Source: Atherix ibis (Eukaryota > Arthropoda > Insecta > Diptera > Athericidae). From it: a DNA stretch of 64,000 nt. Shown here in pieces: positions 2,230-56,759 of this stretch. Position 1 is the first letter of the stretch; every line of letters begins with the position of its first letter. Below the pieces are notes generated by a model. It was not told the origin of the DNA, searched no databases, and was given only the letters and a program-made list of their open reading frames with translations. Location: the NCBI GenBank assembly GCA_958298945.1, contig OY282607.1, positions 89,969,270 to 90,033,269 on the forward strand, given 5' to 3'. The position numbers and the translations under genes are program-made.

Positions 2230-3420
2230 AAAAGTCTACTGGCATCGATAATATATCGAATTTGATGCTGAGAAAGATTCCGAAAAAGAGTTTGAGTCCC
2301 TTAGTTACAATATTTAATCACTGCATCAACAATTTCTACTTCCCTAAAGCCTGAAAGATAGGCATAATCTTTAATATTCCGAAAACTCAAGGTAGAGTAG
2401 TCATCCAACAACATCGACCTATATCTCTTCTTTCCTGTTTGGGAAAAATATTAGAAAAATTCTTTTACGAAAAGGTAAATTATTCCCGACTTTCAATTCG
2501 GATTTCGGAAAGGGCACTCTACTTTGGATGCGCTTTTTCTACTACATAGTGAGATCACAACTGGGTTTAACCATAAAGAGTCAACAGTTGCTTGTTCCCT
2601 AGATATTACCAAAGCCTTTGACTCAGTTTGGCATAAGGGACTAGTGCACAAACTATGTAAACTTAACTTCCCTCCATATTTTACGCTGCTGCTGCACTAA
2701 TTTCTTCAGGATAGATCATCTTGCGTCAAATATCAGAACACGACTTCCAAATTCTTTACAATAGGTAAAGGAGTTCCACAAGGCTCGGTATTAGGTCCCT
2801 TGCTGTATTCAATATATAATGCAGACATACCAACAGCCGCAAGAGCACAAATGATATTATATGCAGACGACACTCTTATTTATGCCAAAAGAAAATCACC
2901 AAAATTAGCTCTGATGACTGGAACTTGTCAGTCAATCTTAATAAGTCCAATTGAATCTGTTTCCGTAATCCCAGCACTCGAGGACCGAGGAAAATTGCTA
3001 CAAAGAGCAAAAAGCTGCGTATTCTGATTAAAAACACAGCTATTCCAGTCTCAAATCAACTAAAATATTGAGGCATCAACTTTAACTCAGTGTTCAAATT
3101 TAACCCACATGTTGAGTTAACTCTGAAAAAAGCCAAAAGGGCTATTCATACCTTTCTATTCCTACTTAGGCGTCAGAAAGGGCTTAGTATAAATACAAAG
3201 TTACTATTCTATAAACAACTTATTCGGCAAATTATTGGCTATGCATTTCCGATCTATTTAAGTTTCTCGAAAACGTATCCCAATAAAGTCCATGCATTTG
3301 AAAGGTCAATCATTAGGAAATGCCTTTCAAAATATCGTAAAATAGACAGCAAGCATTATTCTAACTCCTACACATATCAGAAATGTAATCTTACTCCTTT
3401 TATTTCATACATGGTTGTAT
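2230..3420 (+). pseudogene. Reverse transcriptase pseudogene (Jockey type)
   Basis: RT copies RNA into DNA at the target site in non-LTR elements. The translation, jumping between frames, gives HRPISLLSC near 2420, an ITKAFDSVWHKG-like block near 2610, a GVPQGSVLGPL-like block near 2775 (broken), YADDTLIYA near 2860, and FNPHVELTLKKAKRAIHTF with LLFYKQLIRQIIGYA at 3095-3250. The order matches the palm and thumb of Jockey/I-type RTs. No endonuclease domain was seen upstream, so the copy is 5' truncated. The frame is broken several times. Confidence 0.8.
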
Positions 3421-3469
3421 GTATGAAATAAAAGGAGTAAGATTACATTTCTGATATGTGTAGGAGTTA
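3362..3469. repeat. Perfect inverted repeat, 51-bp arms, 6-bp loop
   Basis: Positions 3362-3412 are the exact reverse complement of 3419-3469, with ggttgt between them. The left arm is coding RT sequence of the relic, so the right arm is a fold-back copy of it. The RT reading does not continue cleanly beyond the palindrome. Confidence 0.97.
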
Positions 3470-4614: not shown

Positions 4615-4850
4615 GACAGAATAAGCTTTACGTAGAAGTTATGATAGACTAACTGCTAATCTGGAACCCTCACATACAAATAAAACGAAGTAAACTGAAT
4701 AAAAATATTCATTAAGATTCCTAGACAATGGGTCACAACTGACTATAATACAGTTAATTATTACTACCCATAACACGTTACTAAAACCAATATGGACCTA
4801 CGGACTCAAACTTAGGGATTTAACTAAGCATTCCAATTGAATTAGGTGAA
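4615..4850 (+). pseudogene. Jockey-type RT fragment with the unexpanded motif
   Basis: A short, frame-broken piece of the same RT type as the element at 5.3 kb. Around 4783-4822 it encodes an LLKPIWTYGLKL-like peptide, the conserved motif just after the RT thumb in Jockey-type elements. The motif is present once here, which gives an internal reference for the form of the sequence before the 52-bp expansion seen at 6.3 and 24.7 kb. Confidence 0.65.
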
Positions 4851-5275
4851 AGTTTTTTTTTCAAAAAAAATTCCGTAATAAATATGAGTCCAGATAAATA
4901 TAGAAAATTTTAAATTATTTGATTAAAATACTATAAAATTATTTAAACAAATATTTTCTTATCTTATGAAAAAGGTTTTCCCATAAACTTCTTGGAATTT
5001 TGATATATTATTTTCTTGTGAAAACTTCCCAGAAAAATTATCAATTTTCACTTTCCAGCTTACATTTTCCTTACCTTATCTTCTAGTACAAGTAATTATC
5101 ATTAAAACAATTTTTTTTCTATTTTTTCTAAAATACAATTTTTTTTTATGTACATTTTAAATAATTCTATTAAATTTGACTAAAAGTTATGGATTTACTT
5201 ATTTAAAAATTTCATATTGAAAATTCTATAAACTTTAATTTTAACTGGTGGTTGGTAATTATTGTCACCACAAGT

Positions 5276-5333
5276 TATTGCCTTTGGGTGAAGATTCATG
5301 GATAAGAGAATGAATCTTCACCCAAAGGCAATA
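5276..5333. repeat. Perfect inverted repeat, 24-bp arms, 10-bp loop
   Basis: Positions 5276-5299 are the reverse complement of 5310-5333, with ggataagaga between them. The right arm merges with the start of recognisable RT coding sequence, so the fold-back sits at the truncated 5' boundary of the second Jockey-type relic. Confidence 0.95.
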
Positions 5334-6262
5334 GCTTCTTCCAAAGTTGCCAATTTAATCAAACTCCTTTCTAAAAACAAAACTCCTGGCTATCATCTGA
5401 TCACCTTTAATATACTCCAATAACTTTCTAAAAGATCAATACTTGCCTTCGTTACACCACACTTCGCAGAACACATTTTCCAATCCTTTGGAAATTTGTC
5501 ATTATAAAAATGATCCCTAAACCCAATAAACCAATAAACCTCCCCACTTCCTACAAAACAACAAATATCCTTCCATTGCTCGCAAAAATCTTTGAAAAAA
5601 TAGTCTCCTCCTCAAATTCTCAAATTTAATTCCCAACCATCAATTCGGTTTCCGTTACGAACTTTCCACTACCCAAAAGTGTCTTCGACTTCTCGATTTC
5701 ATTGCATCCTCTTTAAAAAGCAAAGAGTACTATCCTGTTGTCTTTATTGATATAAGTCAAGCTTTTGGGCACCTGGGCTTACTGTGGAAACTTGAGAGGA
5801 TCCTCCCTTCCACCTATTTCTTAGTTCTAATATTATTCCTTTCCAACTGACACTCCGAAGTAAACGAATTCAACGAACTGTCCGATATTGGCTGATGTTC
5901 CACAGGGAAGTTTACTTGGGCCCATTCTCTACAAAATTTACACATTCGAATCCGGTCCATACGGTCTGCCTTGCATCTATCGAAATCCCCAATATGCTTC
6001 CAAAATTCTCGAAACTAAAATGCAAACTACCTCGAACTGATTTACTAAGTGGCGGGTAAAGGTAATGAAGCACATAATTTTTACTCTCCATTGTGAACCA
6101 TGTACTCTTATATACCTTAATGGCAGCGCCATCGAAGTTCGCTGTCTAGGACTGCACTTAGACAAATGGGCGACATTGAACCAATGTACAAGACTTAAAA
6201 GTTAAGAACTAAAAAAAGTACTGCGACTTCAGGATAACCGTTCTTAACTTGCTATAGAAACG
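5310..6262 (+). pseudogene. Reverse transcriptase pseudogene, 5' to array
   Basis: A frame-broken RT. NLIKLLSKNKTPG near 5350 is the conserved RT start of Jockey-type elements. A QPSIRFPLRTFH block near 5635, a YYPVVFIDISQAF block near 5730 (RT motif A) and a CTLIYLNGSAIEV block near 6100 follow in the expected order. The YADD box is not intact. Stops and indels rule out function. Confidence 0.75.
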
Positions 6263-7088
6263 CAAGTTCTTTTCTACAATGCCACTGAAACCAATATGGA
6301 CTTACGGATAGCAAAGTACTTTCATACAAAGTCCTACTGATACCAATATGGACTTACGGACAGCAAAGTATTTTCATACAATGCCCTACTGAAACCAATA
6401 CGAACTTACGGACAGCAAAGTACTTTTATACAAAGCCCTACTGAAACCAATATGGACTTTCGGACAGCAAAGTACTTTGACACAAAGTCCTACTGATACC
6501 AATATGGACTTACGGACAGCAAAGTACTTTTTTACAAAGTCCTACTAATACCAATATGGACTTACGAACTGCAAAGTACTTTTATATAAAGTCCTACTGA
6601 AACCAATATGGACTTCTGGACAGCAAAGTACTTTCATATAATGCCCTACTGAAACCAATATGGGCTTACGGACAGCAAAGTACTTTTATACAAAGTCCTA
6701 CTTATACCAATATGGACTTACGGATAGCAAAGAACTTTCATACAAAGCCCTACTGAAACCAATATGGACTTTCGGACAGCAAAGTACTTTGATACAAAGT
6801 CCTACTGATACCAATATGGACTTACGGACAGCAAAGTACTTTTATACAAAGTCCTACTTATACCAATATGGACTTACGGATAGCAAAGAACTTTCATACA
6901 AAGTCCTACTGATATCAATATGGACTTCCGGACAGCAAAGTACTTTCATACAAAGTCCTACTGATACCAATATGGACTTACGGACAGCAAAGTACTTTTA
7001 TACAAAGTCCTACTAATACCAATATGGACTTACGGATAGCAAAGTACTTTCATACAATGCCCTACTGAAACCAACATCAACTTACGGA
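6262..7088 (+). repeat. 52-bp minisatellite derived from RT codons, about 16 units
   Basis: The unit consists of 48 bases that read KVLLYKALLKPIWTYG in one frame plus a 4-base junction (cagc). Spacing was checked at 6421, 6473 and 6525, exactly 52 bp apart. Unit variants differ at cctactgaaacc, cctactgatacc and cctacttatacc, and at atggacttacgg versus atggactttcgg. The pattern of variants suggests a higher-order period of about six units (312 bp). Because 52 is not a multiple of three, each unit changes frame, giving a 52-residue protein period in the open stretch 6660-7016. After the last unit the RT motif resumes as TYGLEH. Confidence 0.95.
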
Positions 7089-7465
7089 CTAGAACACTGC
7101 GACTCTGATAAGCCTTCCAATTACCGTCGAATCTAATTCCTTTAATCAAAAATTTAATATGTTCGCAATCAGCCGTGATCTCAAAGTTCCTTTTTGTTCA
7201 TGATGTTACTCTGTCTCGTTATAAAAAGTAATCCCTCGTTCGAAAATTATCCTCCACTTTCTTTCCAAAAAAAAACCCTTCGCAGACTTAGGCGTCACTG
7301 GTCGTTTGATTTACTTAAATACGAAGGCTTACCATAAGCAAACGCTAACAGAAGAAACGTCTATGGATGTTGACTCCCCACAACCATTCATGTAAATTAT
7401 TACTAATATTCAAATCTGCTTATTACTATATGTACTTTTAGATATCTGTAAAAAAAAATAACTGC

Positions 7466-12282: not shown

Positions 12283-15200
12283 GTAAGTAATAAATAAATA
12301 TCTACTCGTAATTTGCATTTTTAATGTCTAAATTTCTGTTATTTATTAACCACGTATTTGTGTAATTATATAGAATTACATGTACACACAATATTTGTTA
12401 CCAGCTATTTAATTTGCAATAATGAAGAAAAAAATAAATAAGCAAAACAATAAACAAAAACAAAAACTCAACAACATAATCATATTGTATTTTTTTGAAA
12501 TAATATAATATAATTAACTAATTCAAATAGCAAAATTATTTTCTTTTAAATTTTATTAAATTTTATTATGGTTATTTTGTTTGGTGAAATTATTTCCACT
12601 CATAATCAAAAAGGTAAAGTAAAGTGCTGTACGGTCGGTCATTAATAAATTATTTTGAAAATAGAAAAAAAAATAACTTTTATAATATTTTTAATTATTA
12701 AAAACATTTGCGGAAATTTCATTTTCATTCTCAGTTGGGTTTACCATATGTTTAGCATCTTAATCGTTCGTTAAGTTTGATTTAAAAAAGTTTCGTTAAA
12801 AAACAAATTCACATCAAAGGTTGCGAGTAACTTTCGATTTCCATTTGGATTTTAATTGAAAACGACGAAAAGAATAAGAAGAAGACAATTTAGTTTTCAG
12901 CCAATTGCGTTAGTTGTCAGAATTGTAATGGCAGAAACGACAATTTGCAAATGCAATTGGAAATGAAATTTATTAATTTTTAATATAATTTAAATTTAAT
13001 ATATTCTATTTTAATTCCAACTGTCAAAGAAGACAATACTGCCATATGACAGATTACTAAAATATGTTGCAGGGCACTTGTTGTCCGTTATCGGAATTTT
13101 TTAAATTTCCATAAGATTGTGAAGGTTTTATAAAATTTTAATAACGAAAACTACTGTTCGTCGAAATTGTGTTCTTGCTAATAGAATACCATGCAGTGAG
13201 TGACTCTATGTTACATACAGGATGGTTTTTATGTTCCACGTCGATTTTGTTTGGCCGCCATTTTGGTTTGGATGACATTTGTCAATTGGCATTTGACAGA
13301 TTACAATTTTTTATGGAGTAACCAATGTCGCAACAACGTGTTAAACTTTTTATTTAAATAACTATTTAGTTAAATGGGATATAAAGCGAAAACTTGGCAA
13401 CAATTAGGGAACCTGAAAAGATTGATGCAGTGAGGCAGAGTATTGCTGAATGTCCGGGTATATCTATGCCGTGCACAAGAACTGGGAATATTTACATCAT
13501 GTTTTTTTTATAAAATTCTCAAAAAAGATTTGCTTTTTTACTCGTAAAAAATTCAAATAACACAAAAGGTACAGGTAAATGGCCATGAACGGCGGCAAGA
13601 CTCGAGTGCTGCGGTATAGACGACCACCATTTTTGTCAAAAACTCATTTTGGGTGACGGAGCACACTTCGACTTGGCTGGCTTTGTTAATAAACAGAATA
13701 GCTGCTATTGGGGCACTAAAAACCCTTCACTGATATATTATAGACCACTTCACCCTCGTAGATTAAATGTATGGTACGGCATTTGAGCCGGCGGCATCGT
13801 TGGGCCATATTTCTTTAAGGATGCTGGAGGCAATGCTGTAACAGTTACTGGGGACCGCTATCGGTATACTTTGGATACATTTTTTTTGTCCGAATTAGGC
13901 CTTCTGAACATGTGACTCCAACAAGAGGGTGCAATATCATACATAGCTCGTGCTACGATGCAAATATTGAAAGAAATTTTTCCCGGGCGAATAATGTCAA
14001 CAAGTGGTCATATCTACTAGCCCCTACGATCCTCTGATTGGAATCCTCCCAATTTTTTCGTATGGAGGTACTTGAAAGACAATAACCGATGCTTAAGGAC
14101 AACAATCGAAACGAAATTGCTGAAATAACACCAGAATTTTTCGAAAATGTTATAAAAAATGTGCTTTAAAGAGCTCGCCTTTACGCTACGACCTAAATCA
14201 ATCAGAAAAATACAAATTATAAAATTGTATTTCATTTAAAAAATATTAAAAATAAACTTCGACCTGGAACATAAAACGCACACTGTATTTTGTTGCCGTC
14301 ATTCTATTACAACGCCACCACAGTCGTTTTGCCGAACTACCCATAACGTGATATAGGATTGAGTTCTCTTAGAAATCTCCAATTTGCGCTTCGGAAAGTA
14401 AAGTTAAATAAAAAACATTTAAACTTTTATTTTACTATATTATCTGTACCTTACCATTATATTAAAAAATGAACAATTATTTAAATAACTGCCATAAGAT
14501 TCCTACCAGAATCGAATCTTTTTGAAGTAATTTTTTTTAGATATTTGTCGCACATTTCGGGTTTTAATCCGACCATTACGTGACAAAGTTTCGTTTTCTT
14601 TTAAGAATATTACTTATGATCAGCAGGCATACGCACGGTTATTTATTTTCTCAAAATTATTACAATTTTTCCTTATTTATTTTCATTTAAAACCAACTCC
14701 CCTCCTCACCCCACCATGAGTACACACAATTTTAATTCTAAAAATGCAACTTTTCCATTCAAACAAAATGTTCCCTATCATTTTTAGATATTTTTTTATA
14801 AATACTCTTTTTTAATAATCATTTTTAATAAAATTATTAATATAATACAAAATTCAACGGCGTCAAATCCCATGATCTTGGATGCCGATTGACATAATCA
14901 AATCTCAAAATACCCCCAATGGTGTGCTTGCAACTTTTCGCATAATAAAGTTGAAATTTGTTGCGTTCTGAGGCTTGTGGTGCCGTTTTGATATTTTCGC
15001 ATATGGTCCAGATAAAAACCTTTAAGTTCAAGCCGAAATGAATTGGTAATAATGTGGCCATAGGGCACCAAATCGACGCTAACTATTTCTCCTACACTTT
15101 CAGACCAAAAAGCATAACAGACAGTCACTTTTTGCAGATACAATGGCTTCTCCGTGATTTTTTCAAGACCCTATGTAACAGTTTTGCTGATTAGCATACC

Positions 15201-18200: not shown

Positions 18201-21200
18201 GTGCCTGGTACAGTGGTCCGTCCCTGCGGCGGTTTTCGTTTCACAATCGAAACAACAACAAACATTATTTTTACATTTGTATGCGCTACTGAATTAATTT
18301 AACAAATAAAAAAAAAATACAATTTTTTATTAATTCCAAAACGAATCAATTTTTTTTTTGTATTTGAATTTTATTTTTTAGCGCTGTGATGATAGTAAAA
18401 CTTGCACCGAATGGATAACCGCACTTGTGGAAAGTTTAACGATGCAAGGCCAATGTGCCAAGGAAAATGGTGTCGGGTAAAAATTAATAAATATTTTTCT
18501 TTTCTTTTTATATAAGAACTAAAAAAATAATTGGATATATTATGAAAATTTTGCAGAAGAGTAAAATATAAAAGTTTCATGAAATTTTTTTCTTCTGGCA
18601 TTATTGACTATTTTCAGATATGCTCCACAATTTCATATATCGCTCGAAAATATCAGACAAATTGGGGGCATGGTCAAAAGGCCAGTACAGGCAAGTTGTA
18701 GCTGGGATTCGATTTGTTCTCCAAAAAATCCAAAATCACCAAAGTTGCCGATAATTCAAAGCACCGCAAGACTTCTAGAACGAAGCGGCGGACCATCAAG
18801 TGATTCGAACCGTACCCCGACACAATCTCATCCCAACGAAAACCCTGACAGGTAAGAAATGGTCTTTCGTGACACAAACCAATTCTATTCATCATCGGCA
18901 ATTGGAACGTATTCAAATTTTAATTGCCATACAATTACTGGTATGCTAGAATTGCGATTGTTTGAATTGGTTTATTTGTGAAATTTCCCGTCGCACTATT
19001 CATTATAGCGATTTTCATAAATTTTTCTGACATTCTTTGCTATTGTTCCCATTATCGTATTGTTAGAAAATCTATTTGAATTAATTTTCGGTCCAATTAA
19101 TCTATGAAAATATGCTAAATTACTAATGCTGTAACAGGTAAAAAATGCCATACTCGTATTGCCTGATAATGTTTTTTTTTCTTCAGAAATATGGTTTTTT
19201 TTTCCTATAAAAATTCAGTTAATGAACTTATATAATTTTTTTTTATAATATAAATTATTTTTAACTATAGCAATTCTTATAAAAATAGAGCAAATTATAG
19301 CAAAACTGAAATATTTAAATGATAAAAGATTATCCAAGTTGAGCTTTGAAAAATAAAGTTTTTTTAAAATAAATTTTAAATTTAGATTTTAATACAATTT
19401 TTATTTTTTTGTATTGATAAAAAGACGCCATTATATATAAAAATATAAGTTTTTTCAAATAATTAACAAAAATAATTTCTTTCAGGACTCGATTCTTTGA
19501 GGTAATTTCTGATGACTCTTTCGAAAATTTCGGTTTGTAATTTGGCAATTACTTGATGGATATTAGTTTTTAATAGCTCTTAAATTTAAAAATTGTCTAT
19601 TTAAATACAATATTTTATATAGTTTTATAAAAAAAAATTTAATGGCATCAAATTGTACGATCTTGGGGGCTAATTGACTTTTTAGCCAAAATTTATTATT
19701 TTGTGTAGGTTTTGGCACTATTTAATTCAAATCACATTTAGTCCAGACTAAATTGTTTAAGTTTAGGCTAAAAAAACGGTTATTATGTGGCCATAGCGCT
19801 TAGTATTGATGGTAGCGATCTCTCGTTCTTTATTTTGAAAATATTACGGGTCAATGACACCTTTAGTCCAAAATTCACACTAGACAGTTACTTATTGCAG
19901 ACATGAAAGCTCTTTACAATCACTTATGAATTTTCAGAGTTCTGTATATAGAATTTTTGCTTATTTGCGCATCCACCGAGCGAGAAATAAGCCTTATTAC
20001 TGACGAAAATTTTCTTTAATAATTCAGCATGCAAATCTTTTATTTCAGCATACAAGCGTTTGTGCAATTTTAAGGAATTAGTTTGATTCACAGTATAAAA
20101 TGGCAAACTTTAATCTAAATAAATAAAATTATAGTTGAAATATTTACCAAGTGTATAAGCTTAAATTTACTGTTTTTTAGTCCAAAAAAAACACATGTTT
20201 TTTTCATAGAAAGCAAAAACAAATTTATTCAAAGCACTTGCCCTTGTTAGTTACACATTTTTCCCATCTCTCGGGCAATTTGTGGATACCACGCCAACAA
20301 AAATCCTTCTCCTTCGAGGCAAACCACTCATTAAGCCATTTTCGGACGTCTTCGTAAGAATTGAAGTGCTGCTCAGTAAGCGCGTGGCCCATCATCGAAA
20401 ACAGGTGATAGTCGGAAGTTAAGAGGTCTGATGAATAAGCGGGGTGGGGTAGCACCTCCCAGTTGAGTATCTCCAAGTAGTTTCGGACCATTTTGGACGT
20501 GTGCGATGGTGCGTTGTCGTGGAGGAAAATCAGCTTGTCATGTCTTTGTTGATAATCCGTCCTTTTTACAGGCAGAGGACGGTGCCATTTTGTCAGTTGT
20601 TGGTGATAGCAGTTGGCATTGACAGTTTCACCAGGTTTTAACATCTCATAGTAGACGATATCCTGCTGATCCCACCAAACGCACAACATCATCTTCCATC
20701 CGAGGCGATTTGGTCTTGGGGAAGATGTTGATGGTTGGCCGGGATCAACCCATGATTTCTTACGTTTAGAATTCTCGAAATATATCCACTTTTCATCGCG
20801 TATCACAATCCGATGCAGGAACAACTTTCTTTTTGGTCTGGCAAGCAAGATTTCACATGTGTTTTGGCGTCGCTACATCTGCCTATCATTCAATTCATGC
20901 GGCACCCATTTTCCGATCTTTTCAATCTTCCCCATGGCACGCAGACGCATGGAAATGGCTGGTTGAGTAACACCCAATTTCTCCGCGAGCATTTTTTACG
21001 ATTGGGTATCGTCTTCGTCCAAAAGAGCCTGCAATTGATGGTCCTCAACCTTCCTAGGCCGTTTTTCACGCTTCTTGTCCCACAAGTCAAAATTGCCGTC
21101 TTTGAACCGACGAAACCAATCTTTGCACGTTGTTCCAGATAAAGCACTGTCACCATAGGCTTCCATAAGTATTCGATGCGATTCGGCAGTCGATTTCTTC

Positions 21201-24200: not shown

Positions 24201-27200
24201 TCTCTCCTCTCCCCTCTCTCCTCTCCCCTCTCCCAATCCCCCGTTGAGTATACAAAATTTTAATACGAAAAATGCACTTTTCCCATTCAAGATGTTCACT
24301 ATCATTTTTTTTTTTTTATATTTCCACTTTTTAATAATCCAAAAGCTATTGTCAAACTGTTCAGGAAAAATCATTTCAGAAGAAATTTTTCTATATTTTT
24401 TAATGAGTCTACATAAAGGATTATATCCAATTTGTAGTTTTTCTCTACAGCATTTATACATTCCATATACCAATCTGTCTCAATAACTTCTTTTCAATAT
24501 ATAGTACACCTTGCATCTAGCAAAAATCATTAATATTCTTCCGAAATTATCCAAATCTAAATCCAAACCCTCCAGCAATAGTTTACCAGGTGGAGAGTGA
24601 AAGTTAATTAACGTAAATCTATCCACGTGACTTTTACTATCCGTCGTGAACCATATCCTCTTATATACCCTAATGGCAGGGCCATCGAAGTTCGCTATCT
24701 AGGACTGCACTAACGCTTGACATGGAAGCAAAGTACTTTTATACAATGCCCTACTGAAACCAATATGGACTTACGGACAGCAAAGTACTTTTATACAAAG
24801 CCCTACCGAAACCAATATGAACTTACGGGCAGCAAAGTACTTTTATACGAAGCCCTAGTGAAACCATTATGGACTTACGGACAGCAAAGAACTTTTATAC
24901 AATGTCCTACTGAAACCAATATGGACTTACGGGCATCAAAGAACTTTTATACAATGTCCTACTGAACCCAATATGAACTTATAGGCAGCAAAGTACTTTC
25001 ATACAATGCCCTACTGAAACCAATGTGGACTTACGGACAGCAAAGTACTTTTATACAAAGCCCTACTGAAACCATTATGGGCTTACGGACAGCAAAGAAC
25101 TTTTATACAATGTCCTACTGAGACCAATATGGACTTACGGGTAGCAAAGTACTTTTATATAAAGTCCTACTGAAACCAATATGGACTTACGGACAGCAAA
25201 GTACTTTCATACAATGCCCTACTGAAACCAATATGGACTTATGCACTAGAACTCTGGGTCCGACTAAGCCTTCCAATTCCTGTCGAATCTAATCCCTTCA
25301 ATCAAAAATACTACGTACAATTGTCGAAGCTCCATTTTATGTTCGCAATAGTGTTATTCGCCATGATCTCAAAATCATTTTTGTTCATGATGTGGGTGTG
25401 TCTCCAATCATACTAATCCCCATGTTCAAGAACTATCCTTCAGTTCCTTTCCAAAAAAAACACCCATCACAGATTTAAGCGTCACTGGTCGTGTGACTTA
25501 CTAAAATAATGAGGCACGCAGGAGAAACTTCGTTGGCTGTTTACTCCCCACAACCATTCATGTTAATTTGTTACTATTATTCAAATCTGTTTGTTATAGT
25601 TGTAGTAATCTGTGAAAATTAAATAATTTATAAACTATTTGAACAAACTTTTAATCAGGCAGCTCGAAATTAAAAGAAAAAATAATTTTATTTATTCAGT
25701 TTTTAAGTACAGTGTAAACTGTCCCCAGTATACACTATAGGCTAAGCATGGATCCACTACGAATAAACAATTTAAATTTTCAAATTTTTTATCGATTTTC
25801 CTCAAGTATAAATAAAATTATCTAGAAATAGCCCAGATCGATTTCCTTGACCCATTCAGATTTGAGTATGTTTTGTATAGTTGAAAGAGTAATCAGTGAA
25901 TGATGGCAAATTGAATTAGGACACATTCGGTCTGTGCCAGATTACGAAATTGTATTAAATTTTCTGGACCAAATTTATAAATTGACGAACGTATAAAAGC
26001 GGTGGTTTTTTTTTGTTTGTTCGAAAAGAACATAATCAATCAGCTTATAGGTAATTTAATCAAATCAGTTTCTGGGGAGTATTCTGTGCAATTGTACGAG
26101 TACATGTTGAGAACAACAGGACGTCTATCGTAGACTAACCTCCTGCGCCTTCCAATCAGTCGACTGCATTTTCCGAATGAAAAGAAATCATTTCCATTTG
26201 GGGATTGGGGATAGGGACTTTGAGTATTTTCACCGCACAAACGTATGTGTTCCCATGTGTAAAGGGAAAACGTACCACAACGAACGGTTATGAAAAAATT
26301 GAAATGCATTTTTCCAACTGCGCTTGTGTACGTATGGCCTGTTGGTGTATATATGATATTATATATATATATGGACTGGTAGCATTTTGTGTGGATGGAT
26401 GTGTGTGAATTTATTTGTTATTAGAAGTCAGAATTCACTTTTTAGCTTTGCTACGTTCAGAATTCATTTGGAAGTCTCAGTTTAGCGAGAGCTTCGTCCT
26501 CAGACGTTGCAGTGATTCTATTTAAAGGATATTTTTTTCTTTTCTCTTTAAGGGCACGAAACTTCCGGTTGCACGAGAAAAACTCAACGGCAAGTCAATC
26601 TGACGAAGTGTTCCGCATCAATCAAATGTTCAATCGAAGTGCTGTGGTTGCTGCTGGTGGAATGGAATCGCCCGGAAGCGGCGGCGGCGGCGGACTCTTG
26701 GTCCGATCCAATGTGCCGAACTCGTTTAGTAGTGATACGGACTCGGGCCTAGCGAACAGTGTACTCCGCGATAGTGGAAGTGGATCTGAAACTGGAGCTG
26801 GTTATATTGAACGTATCCAAGAACAATTGCCGCTTACCAGCCAAATGGAAAATTCTTCTGACAAATTAAATTTTCCAAAAATGTACGAAGATAATACAAG
26901 TCCGCGCGATTTAAATCAAAACCGAATGTTCGATAGAAATATAAGGTAAGGACTGATTTATCCTTAATCCTTTATGAGTATAGAAAAAATTTTAATATCA
27001 TATGTAGTTACACCAAAGAGGAATATATGCAAAAATATGGAAGAGAATGATTCATTAAAGTTCAATCGATTAGTTAATTTTTGTGAATTCATTGTAAATT
27101 CTCAGTGTGAATTGATGTGTAAATAAAAACATTATATCAATTTTATAGTGAATTGTATCCTTTGTGATTGATATTTTAGTATTAGACTATAAAATAATAT

Positions 27201-30200
27201 TTTAAGTGCAATAATTAGAATTGAAAAAAAAAAGAAATCTTTTCTTAGTCATCTATTTTTATTGTAATTGATAATAAAATGTTTTTAGACTAATTTGAAA
27301 AATACTAAAAAAATTTCTCTCTCTTAATCGATAGACAAAAAATTGTCTTAAAAATAATTTTCTATTAAAAAAATTTCGTTTTTTTTTCTTAAAAAATTCT
27401 TATTTTCAAAACGAAATTTTTTAAATTTAACAGTTTGCATTTATCATTAAAATTGTTAACTTTTATTTGCACAAGTAGTTAGTAAATTAGAAAGAAAAAA
27501 AATTGTGAAATAATAAAAAAAAAGCTTTTTTGCTATTAATATTTAATATAATTTAATATTTGTAGAATTTTTTTTTTTTTATTAATAAAATGTATTCATT
27601 CTTTCTATGTTTTTGTATTTAATTATTTTTTTTAATTAAAAATTGTTTTTCTTCTAAAAAAAAAAATGTCTTTGGTTTTTTCTTTAATTCCTGGTTTAAT
27701 ATTTTATATTAATATTTTTTTCTTTCCATAATATAATAATAAGGTACTCGTAATTAATGAATGATGATCTAAAAGGTAGTTTGGATTCAACAAAGTCATT
27801 CATTCTATTAGGCTTGAGATGATTTTATAACTTATTTCTTTTTTAAGATACTTTTTTTTATGATGTAAATATTTTTTTTTTAAATTCTTCTTGATCTTTA
27901 TTTAAATTTTGCACATACTTTTTTCCAAATTTTTATTTATTCACTATCGACTGATTTTGTGTCAAATTGAACGATCTTGGAGGCCAATTGACATCACCAA
28001 TTTCTCCAAATTACGCATTCTGGTAAATTTTCAAGCAATAAAGCAAAAATTTGTTATGTTCTGTAGCTTGTGGTACCGTTTTGTTAAAACCACATATAAG
28101 GCAGATTAAAAAAAAAATTTAGTTTAGGCCAAAAAAAACTCAGTTATCAAAAAAAAGGTCATAATGTTCCAGAATTAAAAAAGGTTTCCAATGAAAACTT
28201 CAGACCAAAATGCACACCATAAAATCAATTTTTTCAGATACAGTGGCTTTTTCATAGTTACTTGTAGATTTTTAAAGCATCTTATAGGGTAATTTTGCAG
28301 ATTGTCATATTAATCGAGCGAGAAGTGAACTTTAGACCAAAATGCACACCATAAAATCAATTTTTTCAGATACAGTGGCTTTTTCATAGTTACTTGTAGA
28401 TTTTTAAAGCATCTTATAGGGCAATTTTGCTAATTGACCTATCCATCGAGTGAAAAATGAACTTTAGATCAAAATGCACACCATAAAATTAATTTTTACA
28501 GATACAGTGGCTTTTTCATAGTTACTTGTGGATTTTTATAGCCTCTTATAGGGCAATTTCGCTAATTGACACATCTATCGAGTGATAAATGAACCTCATT
28601 GTTGAAAAAGACTTTGTTCATAACGCTCAGAATTGACATCTTTAGACCAAAAAGGTCTCCCCAATGACAACTTCAAGATTTTTAAAGCCTCTAAAAGAGC
28701 AATTTTGCTGATTAACATATCCATCAGCAAGACATTTTTTTGTTGCTGAAAAAGGCAGCACAAAAAAGCCTCTAAAGCCCAATCGGTCTATTCCACAGTC
28801 ATAATTTGATAGTAACTATACGTACTATAAAATGGCAATTTTTATTTTAATTTAAAATTATTTTCTTTATTATATTAATTTTACAACTGTCAAACAACAA
28901 GGCTATGCTTTCCAAACTACAAAATGGGTAATCATGTCTTGTAGACTTGCATTAAATATAAACTTTTAGTTTGATTTTTACCTTTAATACACTTAATATT
29001 ATATTATAATTAAATAAATACCGTTTTTCATAAAAACATTCCCTTCTATTGTAATATATTTGGTTTTTTTTATTGGAATTAGTCACTTTTATTAGGTTTC
29101 TTTTATCTTTAACAGACCATCAAAACTTTCTGTTGAAGTAGTTGAAATTTTCCTCAAAACCATCAAAAAAATTTTATTTTTCGTTAATTTAATATATTTT
29201 ATATACATCGTAAAATGTATCTATTAACATCGTAAAATAGAAATTTTTAGTTTTTTTTGTGTTAATAGCACCATTTTTCTTATAAGCACCAAATTTGGAA
29301 AATTTTTCAACAAAAAAAATCAAATTTTAGCAAAATTGTTGGCGTTTCTTTTACATCAAATTTTATAAATATTTAAAAGTTTAATCGAAAAAAAACTACA
29401 TTTATTTAATAAACAAAAAGTATTCTTTGTTTTTTTTATAAGAAACTGATTAATTTTTAGTACAAACAATTTTTTAATTATAAAGAAATCATTCAACAAT
29501 TTTTTTTAAATATCCTCACAGATTGCGAGTAAATTTTGATAAAAAATAAAAACAAAACTTATATTTTAATCTATCAACAAACTTACAGATAATAAAAGTT
29601 TAATATCGAATTACGATAAAATCAAAAGCAAGGGAAATAAATAAAAATGGAAATCTTAAAGTGTTCGTATTTCGAAAATGTGATAAAAATAATACAGAAA
29701 ACATTCTCAACTTCAAAGGTCTTATTCGCTTCCACTTAAAGTAGATTTTCTTTCTGATAGTTGAATTTTTTCCCTCTTCTCCTTTTTATGTTTTTAAATA
29801 ATCTAAAAATAATTTTTTTTTTCTTTAACCTATTTCATATACAAAACGTATGTTAAAAGTAGAACAACTGTTTATGATCATAAAACAGAGAACATGCCTG
29901 TCGTCTCTACCTATGTTGAAAATTATACAATAAAAATAACTACAAAAAAAAATGGGGGAAAGTAATTTTTAAGAAAGAAAATCTAATCCAACATGAGTTT
30001 GGTGTGTTGTTTTAGATAATTTTGAAAGCACGCGTTCATAAGAAGCTATAATTTCGAAAAAAGGTATAAAAATACACTATTTAAATAGTCCCTAAATTTA
30101 GATGAGTGTACGTTGTTCTTCCACATTATTAACCGGAACTATACACACTCTTATAGTAGATGCACATTATCATAGAAAAATTTCGATAGTACACTGAAAT

Positions 30201-39493: not shown

Positions 39494-42400
39494 CTGAAAT
39501 GAAAATTATAGTTTAAAAACTTTTTGTCATTTTTATGACAAAGTAAAGGTGCTATTTACCTTTTAGGAGTTGCTACAATCTTAGGGATTTTCTCTTTTTT
39601 AGGAGATAAAAATGTGGTAACATTTTGTGATTCTTGTCGGAGAGATTTTTCTAAACTCACAGACGATGCACGTTTAGATACAAATAATGGTTGTTTTGCA
39701 GAAGATTGATGATTAGTTTTATTAGCAAACTTGTTGAAATTCGTTCTTTCCAATTCTAAAGGATATGAGCATGGCAATTTGTCAAAATCACTTGACTCAC
39801 GGATTTTTTCTTCTGTTCTGGTAAATTGTAGACTTGAATATTTATTGAGATTGAAAATTGAAGTTCTTTTACTTAACAAACTTTCATTAAATTTATCTGG
39901 AATATTTGCTATAACTTTTATAGTTTCTAAGCTACTAACCGGCTTAGTAAAATTTCCTTTTTCGTGCCTTTTTGAATTTTTCGTTAAATCTAAAGGAGTA
40001 TCGTCATTGAATATAACCAATTTTTCTGTAGAATTTTTTCGATTATGGACAGTTAAATTTATTGGTTCTTCAATTTCGGAAAAATTATTTATATTCGAAA
40101 TTTCATCTTTATTTTTGTGAGCGCAAAAATTTTCATTACAATTAAATTCTAAATTATTCACTTTTCTGTTATTTGAATTTATTTCAAAAAATTTCTGCAC
40201 TGAATTAATTTTATTGATATTTGTATGACAACTTAACTTGACAAAATCAGGATTCTCAATAACACTTATACTCTCATTATTCCCATCGGTAATGGTCAGA
40301 TCTACAATACTTAATTGATCACATTCTTTGGTATTTTCAGAAATACTATTTCTTTTTTTAATCATATCAATTTTGTTGGTATTATTTTGTACAAAATCTT
40401 TTTCTAAGATATTGTCCAAAATACCATTTTTCATTTTAGTATTCAAAATAGGAAGTTTCTTATTTTCTTTATATTCAAAATTTTGTAATTTACACTTTCC
40501 ATAAAGATTATTTTCTTTTGTGCTTAACATTAACTGATTTTTAGAATCAACCTCTTTCTTTGAAATACTGCTGAGAATTTCGTCAAAATCAAAATCATCT
40601 TCCAAAAGTGAAACGTATTCATTTTTCGATTCTATCGTATTTCCTTTTTTATAAGAATTGAAATTTGTTGTATCTTTTTTGAAATGTTCTATTTGTAATT
40701 TAGTTTGTAGCTTCTTCTTTGGTAATTTGCTATCAGCAAACTCATTATCATAAAAATTTAATGTGATTTCAACCATTTTATCAACACCAACTATTATGAG
40801 AATAATGCATTTTTTTTTATTATTATTATAAATAAATATTATTTAATTAATTTGATTTAATATAAATTAAATATAAAAACAAAATAGAAATACCTAAATT
40901 TAAATGAATCAAATGTGCAGAAATTTTTGATGTTTTTGGATTTCGAATCTTAAATTTTTGACGAAAGATTCCATTCTCCAAAAGGATTGTGTCACTAATT
41001 AAGCAATAAACATATTATAAAACAGTCTGGAGTAAGTATTATTTTAATATTTTTATATATTTATATTAATTAAATAGTAAATTTAATATATAAACCAAAG
41101 ATAGAAACTTACATTTTTTCACTAAAAAACAATACCGTATTATCCGTGTCACCAACAATAAAATTAGCTTTCATCGTATTTATATTTTTTTTATATTTTT
41201 GATTATTTTGCTTTACGATTATTTCAACGAATTCATCATTAATAATTTGCATATCAAGACTGTAATCAGGAAACGACGCAATGGCTTGATGTATTTCCCT
41301 TCCAAATGGTGGTGCTTTATTTAAAATCTAATTAAAAATAACATATTTTAAATAAAAAATCAATTATAAAAATAAGTTTTATAGGTTTTTAATTTAAAAA
41401 ATTCCGTATTAAACAAAAGATTTTTATTTTATAATTAATCATATTCAGTTTGTTTTTAAAATGGCGGCTACAAGAGGTAATTTGTCAAGCAATGTGAGAA
41501 ACGCATGGTGCTGTTGTAAGGTTTAAGTGAAAAATTTCTCTTTAATGTTTTTGGATGCAAAGACGATAGTGGCACGATAAAGAACCGCAACTACAAACCC
41601 ACCAGTATCCACTGTCACTTCAAAGGTCTTCTGGAGGTTCTGGTTAACCTATCATAGCCATCTCTCTAGGAATTCCCGTCCGAATATTGTTTTTACAATA
41701 TTATAAAAATAATTTTATAGTTTTTAATTTAAAAAATTCCGTATTGAACAAAAGGTTTTCTATTTTATAATTAATCATATACAGTTTGTTTTTAAAATGG
41801 CGGCTACAAGAGGTAATTTGGCAAGCAATGTGACAAACGCATGGTGCTGTTGTAAGGTTTAAGTGAAGAATTTCTTTTTTTGTTTTTGGGTGCAAATACG
41901 ATAGTAGCACGATAAAGAATCGCAACAACAAACCCACCAGTATCCGCTGTCACTTCAAAGGTCTTTTGGAGGTTATGGTTAACCTATCATAGCCATCCCT
42001 TTAGGAATTCACGTCTGAATTTTGTTTTTTATACCACTACCAAATCTCCTAACTCTTTGAGAGTTATGGACACATAATATAACAAGGTTTCCTCAAAGAA
42101 TACCCTCGAGCTTAACAGGTTAGGTGGATCATTCTAGATCTAGCTTTGCCAGAAGATGCAAACACGCTGCGAAGATATTTGTTGATGAAAACGTAGAGTT
42201 TCCAACATGGCCCAATAGCGATCATCCTTAAATAAATATGACCCAATGATGCCGCCTGCCCAAATGCCGCACTATACATTTAATCTACGATGGTCTTTGG
42301 AGTATCAGTTGAGGGTTTTTAGTACCCCAGTAGCGGCTATTCTGTTTATTAATAAAGCCAGCCAAGTCAAAGTGTGCTTCGTCGCTCATATTGATTTTTT

Positions 42401-54375: not shown

Positions 54376-55225
54376 ACTGATTAATCTGTATTAGCTAAAA
54401 TCTGTAATAATAAAAAGTTTAAAAAAAATCAAGACTTACAAATTATAATTTTTTTTTTCAAGACTTAAATTTGAAAATTCAAGACTTAAAGAAGTTACTG
54501 TCCCTATATAAGCGACTAATAACTCTGTATTAGCTAAAATCGGTAACAATAGAAAATTTAAAAAAATCAAGACTTAAAAATTATAATTTTTTTTTCAAGA
54601 CTTAAATTTGAAAAACCAAGCCTTAAAAAGTATAATTTTTCTTTTCAAGACTTAAATTTAAAAAAATCAAGACCTAAAAAAGTTATCGTCCCTATATAAA
54701 AGCCTGATAACTCCGTATTTGCTAAAATCTGTAATAATGAAAAATTTAAAAAAATCAAGGCTTACAAATTATAATTTTTTTTTCAAGACTTAAATTTAAA
54801 AAAATCAAGACCTAAAAAAGTTATCGTCCCTATATAAGGGACTAATAACTCTGTATTAGCTAAAATCTGTAATAATGAAAAATTTAAAAAAATCAAGGCT
54901 TACAAATTATAATATTTTTTTCAAGACTTAAATTTGAAAAAATCAAGACTTAAAAATTATAATTTTTCTTTTCAAGACTTAAATTTGAAAAACCAAGACT
55001 TAAAAAAGTTATCGTCCCTATATAAGGGCCTGATAACTCCGTATTTGCTAAAATCTGTAATAATAAAAAATTTAAAAAAATCAAGACTTACAAATTATAA
55101 TTTTTTTTCAAGACTTAAATTTAAAAAAATCAAGACCTAAAAAAGTTATCGTCCCTATATAAGGGACTAATAACCCTGTATTAGCTAAAATCTGTTAGGA
55201 TAAAAAATTTCGAAAAAATCAAGGC
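54376..55225. repeat. Tandem array with alternating long and short units
   Basis: The segment gtatt(a/t)gctaaaatctgt recurs at about 54387, 54517, 54714, 54850, 55040 and 55176, so spacing alternates between roughly 130-136 and 190-197 bp (a higher-order unit of about 326 bp). Within units a short motif aatcaagacttaaa...ttttcaagacttaaattt is itself repeated in inverted and direct forms, and gtccctatataagg occurs at each long/short boundary. Confidence 0.9.
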
Positions 55226-56759
55226 TATTATAAAGAAAAAATTTTCTTTTAATTACAATTTTTAAGTAATATTTTATATTTTTTCCAATAGTTTATCGAA
55301 TTTTTGTCATTTAATTTTATTTGCACAATTTTTACTACCAGACATACAATAAAACTATCATTTATAATGGGGGTGATGTAATCAATTAAAATATTTAAAA
55401 AATTATCAATTTGAAAATAATTCCAATTTATAAAAAAAAAATATGAAAATAATACATAAAAACAACACAAATTGAAGAAAAAAACATTTTTACTATAAAT
55501 ATAAATAAATAAACGAGTATGTAAATATTCGTGAAATTCGATTTCATCTTCTATTGCATTCGATGAGAAATGCAAACCTCTTTTTCGTAATCACAATTTA
55601 CTAAATGCGATAAGGTCGTGATGATGAGCTGCAATGGTGTGTGACATGAACAACCTTTAAGGCTGTTTATGTAATAAAAGTTAAATATAATAATAAAAAC
55701 CAGAAGGTAAATGAAGAAAAATAACAAATAAAAATTATTTTGACAAATAGAAAGAAATATCTTAAGAATGTTCGCACAATAATCTTAAAGGCCCTGGAGG
55801 ATAGTACTTGCTGGTCATATATTATTAGTTATTGTGGTTAATTGTAAACTGTATGATTAATAATAATACAATTATGATTTGATGATATATATTATAGTTA
55901 TTTGATGAAACTCTACTTTAAATACGGGCAGTATACCTGAACTGAAAGCTTAAGAGATCGTGCACCGCTTTATCAGCGACACATTCTTGACACCTCTTCA
56001 TTTATCGGAGATTACCTGTAAGCTACTAAAATTTCACCACCGAACAAATTGGCTTATGAAAAATGACCAGCATCAGATACTTCTTTCTTAAAAAAATCTA
56101 TTGAACTAAATTCGAAGAAAAAAATTTTACAACTATCATCTTTCCATATCGACGACGATGCAAATATTTCAAAATTCAATTTTTTTATTTTTAAATCGTT
56201 TTTTTTTTTTATTATTATTTTTTTTTCTGATTAAATATACAACAATCATTAATTTTAAAAGTATTTATTAATTCTGACATTTAACTAATATTATTTGAGC
56301 GATCAATCAATCTTTGAAGAAATCATTAAATATAAAAATGCGTGACAGCATTTTGCTGATTAACCTTTACCGATGGAAAGTGAATACTCGTATTAGAACA
56401 CGTATAAGCTAAGATTTGGTTTGAGGTTAGGCTCGTATTTGGTTTGAGCTTCCACTAATTACTAAGTCAGAATTTATTTTTAAGCAGAAATAATTGGATT
56501 TTTAACAGTTTTTATTTAAAATTTATATTTTATATGAATTTTTATTAATAATTTATAATATTTTTACTACTCGTAGTTTTAGAAAAATTTAGTTCAAATT
56601 AAAAAAAAATACAAACTTTTTTTAGAAGCAAAGAAAAAAAGTTTAATTTATACTTTGAAGAGTAAAGTTTAATCAAATATACTTTAAATTCCGATTTAAA
56701 TATAGTTTTTTTTAATTTATTATATTTATCAAATTCTGTCATAATGTATTAATTAAATA
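55226..56759. other. Intergenic DNA, no gene recognised
   Basis: A minus-strand ORF of 108 codons (55249-55575) is rich in Phe/Tyr/Ile and predicts a hydrophobic stretch, but residue bias fits AT-rich chance sequence. A (t)n/(ta)n-rich segment lies near 56200. Nothing else was seen. Confidence 0.45.

Follow-up and report, generated by a model that had tools for sequence, protein, structure and literature searches.

A minisatellite of reverse transcriptase codons in neighbouring decayed copies of a non-LTR retrotransposon of Atherix ibis

Transposons are a well-known source of minisatellites. SVA and LAVA, two VNTR composite retrotransposons, as presented in the relevant sections of PMC4432496, are non-autonomous elements mobilised in trans. 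Minisatellites in retroelements have also been described earlier, and the corresponding part of a review (PMC9659126) gives satellites that originate from the ORF2 of LINEs: PROsat, Pvc 20 and the CR1-related HinfI. The array considered here resembles SVA and LAVA, as outlined in those sections, in residing, as a minisatellite, within an element dependent on a non-LTR retrotransposon, in the gain and loss of units at the DNA level and in the microhomology at the breakpoints (PMC4432496); it differs in that its unit is RT coding sequence. With the LINE ORF2 satellites of the review it shares a repeat unit taken from non-LTR coding sequence (PMC9659126), but here the unit is 52 bp long, still resides inside the parent element and forms short arrays. 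The 3'-UTR repeats of Ogre that seed Lathyrus satellites, in the portion of PMC7004042 that deals with them, likewise demonstrate that a short array in a retrotransposon can expand locally, although in Ogre, which is an LTR element, the arrays follow gag-pol and are dispersed together with the element (PMC7004042). Similarly, the TIR-220 repeats of Tetris in Drosophila virilis are transposon-internal tandem repeats that seed arrays, but, according to the passages concerned, this is a DNA transposon, and the repeats, about 220 bp long, are in its terminal inverted repeats (PMC4079207). Among the titles and abstracts listed, none describes an RT-codon minisatellite in a Jockey-type element, and one may be in print within full texts.

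The stretch analysed, called the window below, comprises 64,000 bp (C3:89969270-90033269, from a genome of 144 contigs and 669,839,804 bases). The first-pass annotation had noticed about sixteen 52-bp units at 6262..7088, as well as a second element at 24.7 kb with the same unit and junction, and both observations proved correct (arrays A and B, Table 1). TRF applied to the window reports period 52 at 6284-7089 (15.5 copies, 88% matches) and at 24727-25241 (9.9 copies, 88% matches). The 18-base core CCAATATGGACTTACGGA occurs, with at most three mismatches, 26 times, compared to a mean of 0.03 and a maximum of 1 in 100 shuffles. Sixteen of these matches are in array A, nine in array B and one at 4787; the count for B is nine and not ten, as the fifth of its ten units has more than three mismatches.

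Table 1. Coordinates of the element copies and arrays. Positions with a contig name refer to the genome, all others to the window.
Feature	Position	Strand	Description	Evidence
Single-copy relative of the motif	4779..4838	+	17/18 core bases, no array	matched by single-copy queries
Decayed RT of element A, upstream of array	5292..6257	+		weak RVT_1 match at 5596-5847
Array A	6258..7089	+	16 motif copies, 52-bp spacing	TRF and unit table
3' part of element A, after array	7090..7461	+		70% identity, 408 columns, to B 25248-25626
RT of element B	24441..24726	+	5'-truncated and internally deleted	sequence alignments
Array B	24727..25246	+	10 units of 52 bp, junction as in A	TRF and unit table
3' part of element B	25247..25626	+		alignment to A and single copies
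Array D	C3:89080852-89081737	minus	16 motif copies	genome search
Array E	C3:89265504		3 motif copies	genome search
Array F	C3:89473934		4 motif copies	genome search
Sixth array (L012, L030)	C6:13178189-13181571		47 motif copies; units of 80, 81 and 85 bp mixed with 52-bp ones	

The junction between units, TACGGAC followed by AGCAAAG, is identical in arrays A and B. When cut in the codon phase of the element, the arrays tally 16 and 10 units, respectively. Compared with the typed pattern, 1-6 of the 52 bases differ in A, unit A1 apart, and 1-9 in B. Unit A1 (6258-6309) is array-like in its 3' half only, the 5' half being ordinary element flank, two bases short; it scores 33/52, and the remaining 15 units of A score 46-51. 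Unit B1 coincides with the native single-copy motif in all 52 bases; thus the repeat has the features of a transposon-derived minisatellite, a tandem unit in the range of 10-100 bp identical to a transposon stretch. Without the half unit A1, the most divergent pairs of units differ at 10 of 52 bases within A and at 12 within B, and some units recur inside A (A9 equals A12, A2 equals A14). A higher-order period is not significant either in A (period 3 or 6; 772/5000 shuffles reach the best lag) or in B (3304/5000), while array D has a 6-unit period (0/5000). The divergence between A and B units is 12.2% (site bootstrap 7.9-17.0%) and that of the flanks, 17.2% (91/530), is just above this interval, which, with only 52 sites, supports no conclusion about the age of the array relative to the flanks. 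No Rfam family reaches its gathering threshold in the window; the fold of 156 nt of B has z = -2.06, with 4/200 shuffles as good. The window contains other tandem arrays as well, at 54377-55226 with nested periods of 49, 138, 188 and 326 bp, at 28196-28594 (132 bp x 3) and at 41363-42029 (335 bp x 2).

The alignments place both arrays inside decayed copies of one non-LTR element. It is putatively Jockey-like, a clade name that comes from the first-pass annotation and from the motif. The flanks of A and B align with many gaps, at 75% identity over 205 columns on the 5' side and 70% over 408 columns on the 3' side; in particular, 5969-6158 of element A aligns to B. Element A matches single copies at the DNA level from 5701 on, and its earlier part is RT-like by eye only. 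The RT-like blocks, decayed as they are, can be read by eye in pieces. The RVT_1 match (E 0.0018, 18.5 bits) is below the curated cut-off of 29.6, and the other RT-like pieces of the window match no RT family of Pfam. Searches in the protein, viral, prokaryote/genome contig, PDB and plasmid collections found no useful relative of the element; at the protein level there were 19 candidates, none at E 0.01, and 2 candidates, none at 0.001. The copies have differing 5' ends and A-rich 3' ends, and at the ends of elements A and B there are only 7-bp repeats, which may be due to chance. Element B lacks about 100 bp of the RT just before its array. The RT fragment noted earlier at 4.78 kb with one motif is indeed there, but its wider homology is weak: the 5' score is reached by 67/500 shuffles, and the 3' scores by 2/500 (against B) and 35/500 (against A).

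Several other features of the window adjoin or resemble these elements. At the 5' end of element A, positions 5272-5337 form a 66-bp inverted repeat (82%), as if the start of the element were inverted or duplicated. The open stretch of 113 codons at 3090-3428 contains the motif once, matches nothing in Pfam and looks by eye like the equivalent RT region of another non-LTR element. A dispersed repeat is present at 24246-24376, 1433-1564 and 14612-14820; element B adjoins one copy of it and is unrelated to it. On the minus strand, 20225-20848 is a fragment of a mariner-type transposase (Transposase_1, E 2.2e-23).

The origin of the unit becomes clear from the copies that carry the motif once. 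They read ...TATAGACAGCAAAGT...TTACGGACTAGAAC..., the native sequence being ...TATAGACAGCAAAGTACTTTTATACAATGCCCTACTGAAACCAATATGGACTTACGGACTAGAACTC...; most of those inspected read, with small variants, ACTTACTATAGACAGCAAAGTACTTTTATACAATGCCCTACTGAAACCAATATGGACTTACGGACTAGAACTCTGGGG. The unit consists of 17 native codons (SKVLLYNALLKPIWTYG, translated by eye) and one base, and in the array AGCAAAG stands directly after TTACGGAC. Given the native edges in the single copies, the array junction is the native 3' edge GGAC joined to the native 5' edge AGCAAAG. The first-pass annotation had divided the unit into 48 motif bases and a 4-base junction. The length of 52 bp stands; however, the additional four bases are not foreign to the element, being a native serine codon and the final C of GGAC. 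Natively, the motif reads ...YNALLKPIWTYG, and the K variant is one among several internal variants. The proposal of the annotation that the unit consists of RT codons agrees with this comparison, which supports a derivation from the RT of the host element. Both breakpoints share GAC, but at lag 52 only 5/12 bases match, and 26% of the segment positions are as good; hence this microhomology of 3 bp is weak.

As the same annotation had stated, the RT frame resumes past the array at TYGLE in A, and it does so at TYALELW in B, although frameshifts and stops interrupt both copies before as well as after the array. The further suggestion of the annotation, that the RT is intact only when the number of units is a multiple of three, fails. 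A stop is present in one of the three reading phases in 23/26 units of the window, and an array of three or more units passes through every phase, so the rule cannot hold; even three perfect native units in a row leave no frame open. The distance from the first to the last core is frame-neutral in A (780 bp) and B (468 bp) but not in D (844 bp), E (106 bp) and F (155 bp), that is, the frame is kept in net length by two arrays out of five. We considered the rule of three as a selected trait and rejected it on the same grounds, the fit of A and B notwithstanding. A coding role of the array was rejected as well: frames 1/2/3 contain 5/8/9 stops in A and 5/8/2 in B, and the minus strand is also closed. 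Substitutions at codon positions 1/2/3 number 6/32/13 in A and 6/15/17 in B; with most changes at position 2 in A, and positions 3 and 2 nearly equal in B, there is no clear sign of coding constraint. Unable to encode a complete RT, the array-bearing copies are dead, and no coding role of the array is apparent.

Genome searches were performed with three units of A (best 40 of 1512 candidates scored) and with five units of D (best 40 of 1219). Among the best 40 candidates of each, multi-unit matches occur at A, B, D, E, F and a locus on C6 only; below these, the matches do not exceed 80 bp, with the exception of a 101-bp match to a two-copy locus on C5. Since the best 40 of 1512, 1043 and 1219 candidates were scored per search, the second of these being the search with the 5' flank of B, divergent arrays elsewhere could be missed. 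The number of motif copies varies between loci, from 3 in E, 4 in F and 10 in B to 16 in A and D and 47 on C6. Within this reach of the searches, A, B, D, E and F all lie in 0.914 Mb of C3; for five insertions placed independently and uniformly, the probability of such a span is about 2e-11, a post hoc figure.

The element family seems to be very numerous: the two longest stretches read, of 64 and 65 kb, contain 3 and 2 copies, respectively. We read 45 other copies on C1, C2, C3, C5 and C6, namely, all 34 single-motif loci among the matches listed for the A units and 11 of the 37 dispersed loci from the search with the B 5' flank. These are best matches to the queries and not a random sample. 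None of the 45 has a 52-bp-spaced repeat; in five, a second motif match is found 114-632 bp away. When eight of the 11 copies were compared, three single-motif loci (L064, L065 and L067, on C2, C1 and C2) appeared as a younger subset, 94-98% alike over about 850 bp, the other pairs being 70-85% alike.

The sixth array, on C6, has a 212-bp higher-order unit (TRF). It occupies the same position in its element copy, but its junction differs from that of the C3 arrays, and it is independent of them. On C5, the motif occurs twice, 43 bp apart (C5:8880624-8880724, L070). Thus, within one family, tandem amplification of this RT segment took place at least twice, from different breakpoints, and its duplication involved at least three different breakpoint pairs, those of the C3, C6 and C5 loci. 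A different kind of repetition is seen at C1:114206800-114207800 (L071, minus strand), where the surroundings of the motif recur with a period of about 385 bp and motifs of two diverged types alternate.

Several markers bear on the relations among the C3 copies. A 12-bp deletion upstream of the motif is common to A, B, E and F. It is absent from all 20 single copies readable at this site (34 were aligned, 14 being unreadable there) and from 11 further copies examined by eye, of which seven keep the 12 bases and four have other indels nearby. Array D is not readable at the site, although bases stand there in two alignments. B, E and F, but not A and D, have in addition lost about 100 bp immediately before the first unit; this deletion is a weaker marker than the 12-bp one, since the equivalent RT stretch is missing, with other endpoints, from the single copies L062 and L067. 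A and B share nine derived unit variants compared to 3.7 expected (P 0.003), while the sharing between A and D and between B and D is not significant (P 0.10 and 0.11). The shared junction and the shared 12-bp deletion make a common origin likely for at least four of the five same-junction arrays, A, B, E and F, with D uncertain. Hence the single origin assumed in the first-pass annotation is probable for these four arrays and uncertain for D.

Among the matches to the 5' flank of B (best 40 of 1043), E is the best after B itself, F is 34th, under 31 dispersed copies, and A is absent from those listed. Among the array-bearing copies, the 3' flanks are 64-84% identical to one another (70-84% without C6), which does not exceed their identity to the best single copies (up to 87.5%): the 3' flank of B is 87.5% identical to the single copy L019 and 83.7% to E. 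A flank tree does not group the five C3 copies together and lends no support to a single lineage, although it carries little weight, as it took in non-element DNA beyond the ends of some copies. This reads as if the parts of the copies outside the shared stretch did not follow its history. Such differing histories match conversion, yet decay and small numbers could produce them too. In the outer flanks, 17-20 kb around the five loci on both strands, none of the 26 alignments listed continues the element at both copies, a result that would fit separate insertions better than plain segmental duplication.

Of the explanations considered, we lean, with some reserve, to a minisatellite that was born in a dead non-LTR copy, resized in place and passed among C3 neighbours at the DNA level. 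At the first step, as the comparison with single copies shows, a 52-bp piece of the RT was tandemly duplicated between two GAC trinucleotides (those of TATAGAC and TTACGGAC). Judging by the unit variants, the array would then have grown and shrunk by unequal exchange or slippage in DNA. Finally, it would have been passed between neighbouring copies by ectopic conversion, or else by local copying with later loss of flank similarity; confinement to 0.91 Mb is observed within the reach of the searches, and the mechanism is inferred from it. This scheme involves no genome-wide carriage by retrotransposition, and it is the confinement of the array-bearing copies to 0.91 Mb of C3 that argues for transmission at the DNA level. 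Plain segmental duplication is disfavoured because of the unrelated outer flanks. An ectopic gene conversion among old copies of this neighbourhood may account for the flanks as well as the clustering.

We regard as improbable the model of the first-pass annotation, by which retrotransposition brought the array to new sites from an element lineage, active or mobilised in trans, in which it had arisen. This model accounts for one junction in five copies, for the two shared deletions, the 12-bp one of A, B, E and F and the longer one, about 100 bp, of B, E and F, and for the unit variants common to A and B; moreover, in the 26 alignments of the five loci no outside homology continues the element, and B is 5'-truncated and adjoins an unrelated dispersed repeat. 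However, a travelling array would be expected genome-wide, like the single-motif copies, whereas all five copies found are clustered in 0.91 Mb of a 670-Mb genome and all 45 other copies read lack it. At the element ends there are only 7-bp repeats, which may be due to chance, and, with the RT frame broken by the array, movement would need help in trans. The annotation had envisaged a transposon family spreading a VNTR seed, and had named a different junction as an observation against it: the array on C6 has one, and the five arrays with the same junction are neighbours. The nearest analogue of that proposal is SVA/LAVA, defined, in the sections cited, by an array in dispersed copies; there the VNTR is a part of the mobile element, whereas here it is restricted to one neighbourhood, on C3 only among the best 40 candidates per search, and all the dispersed copies read are without it.

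Independent recurrence, by which separate 52-bp slippages via the GAC microhomology converged on identical junctions, seems to us just as doubtful as retrotransposition. Separate duplications of the segment are indeed seen on C6 (80/52-bp units, another junction) and C5; besides, the junction is the only readable marker that D shares with A, B, E and F, and the C3 copies are not a clade in the flank tree. Yet the microhomology amounts to 3 bp and the matching at the 52-bp lag is ordinary, and recurrence leaves the clustering on C3 and the 12-bp deletion of A, B, E and F unexplained. An assembly artefact, with tandem units collapsed, expanded or misplaced, is highly improbable, given the differences between units within A and within B and six assembled loci with different unit numbers and flanks.

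Coming back to transfer at the DNA level, a more specific version of it is that the array moved by ectopic gene conversion into independently inserted copies of the family within a megabase, and that these old non-allelic copies form a conversion network limited to the neighbourhood, with the array as a marker of its range; we put this forward only tentatively. What distinguishes the case is one array common to five copies with unrelated outer flanks, all within 0.91 Mb. If this local confinement holds throughout the assembly, the array would be a natural marker for the reach of sequence exchange between non-allelic transposon copies.
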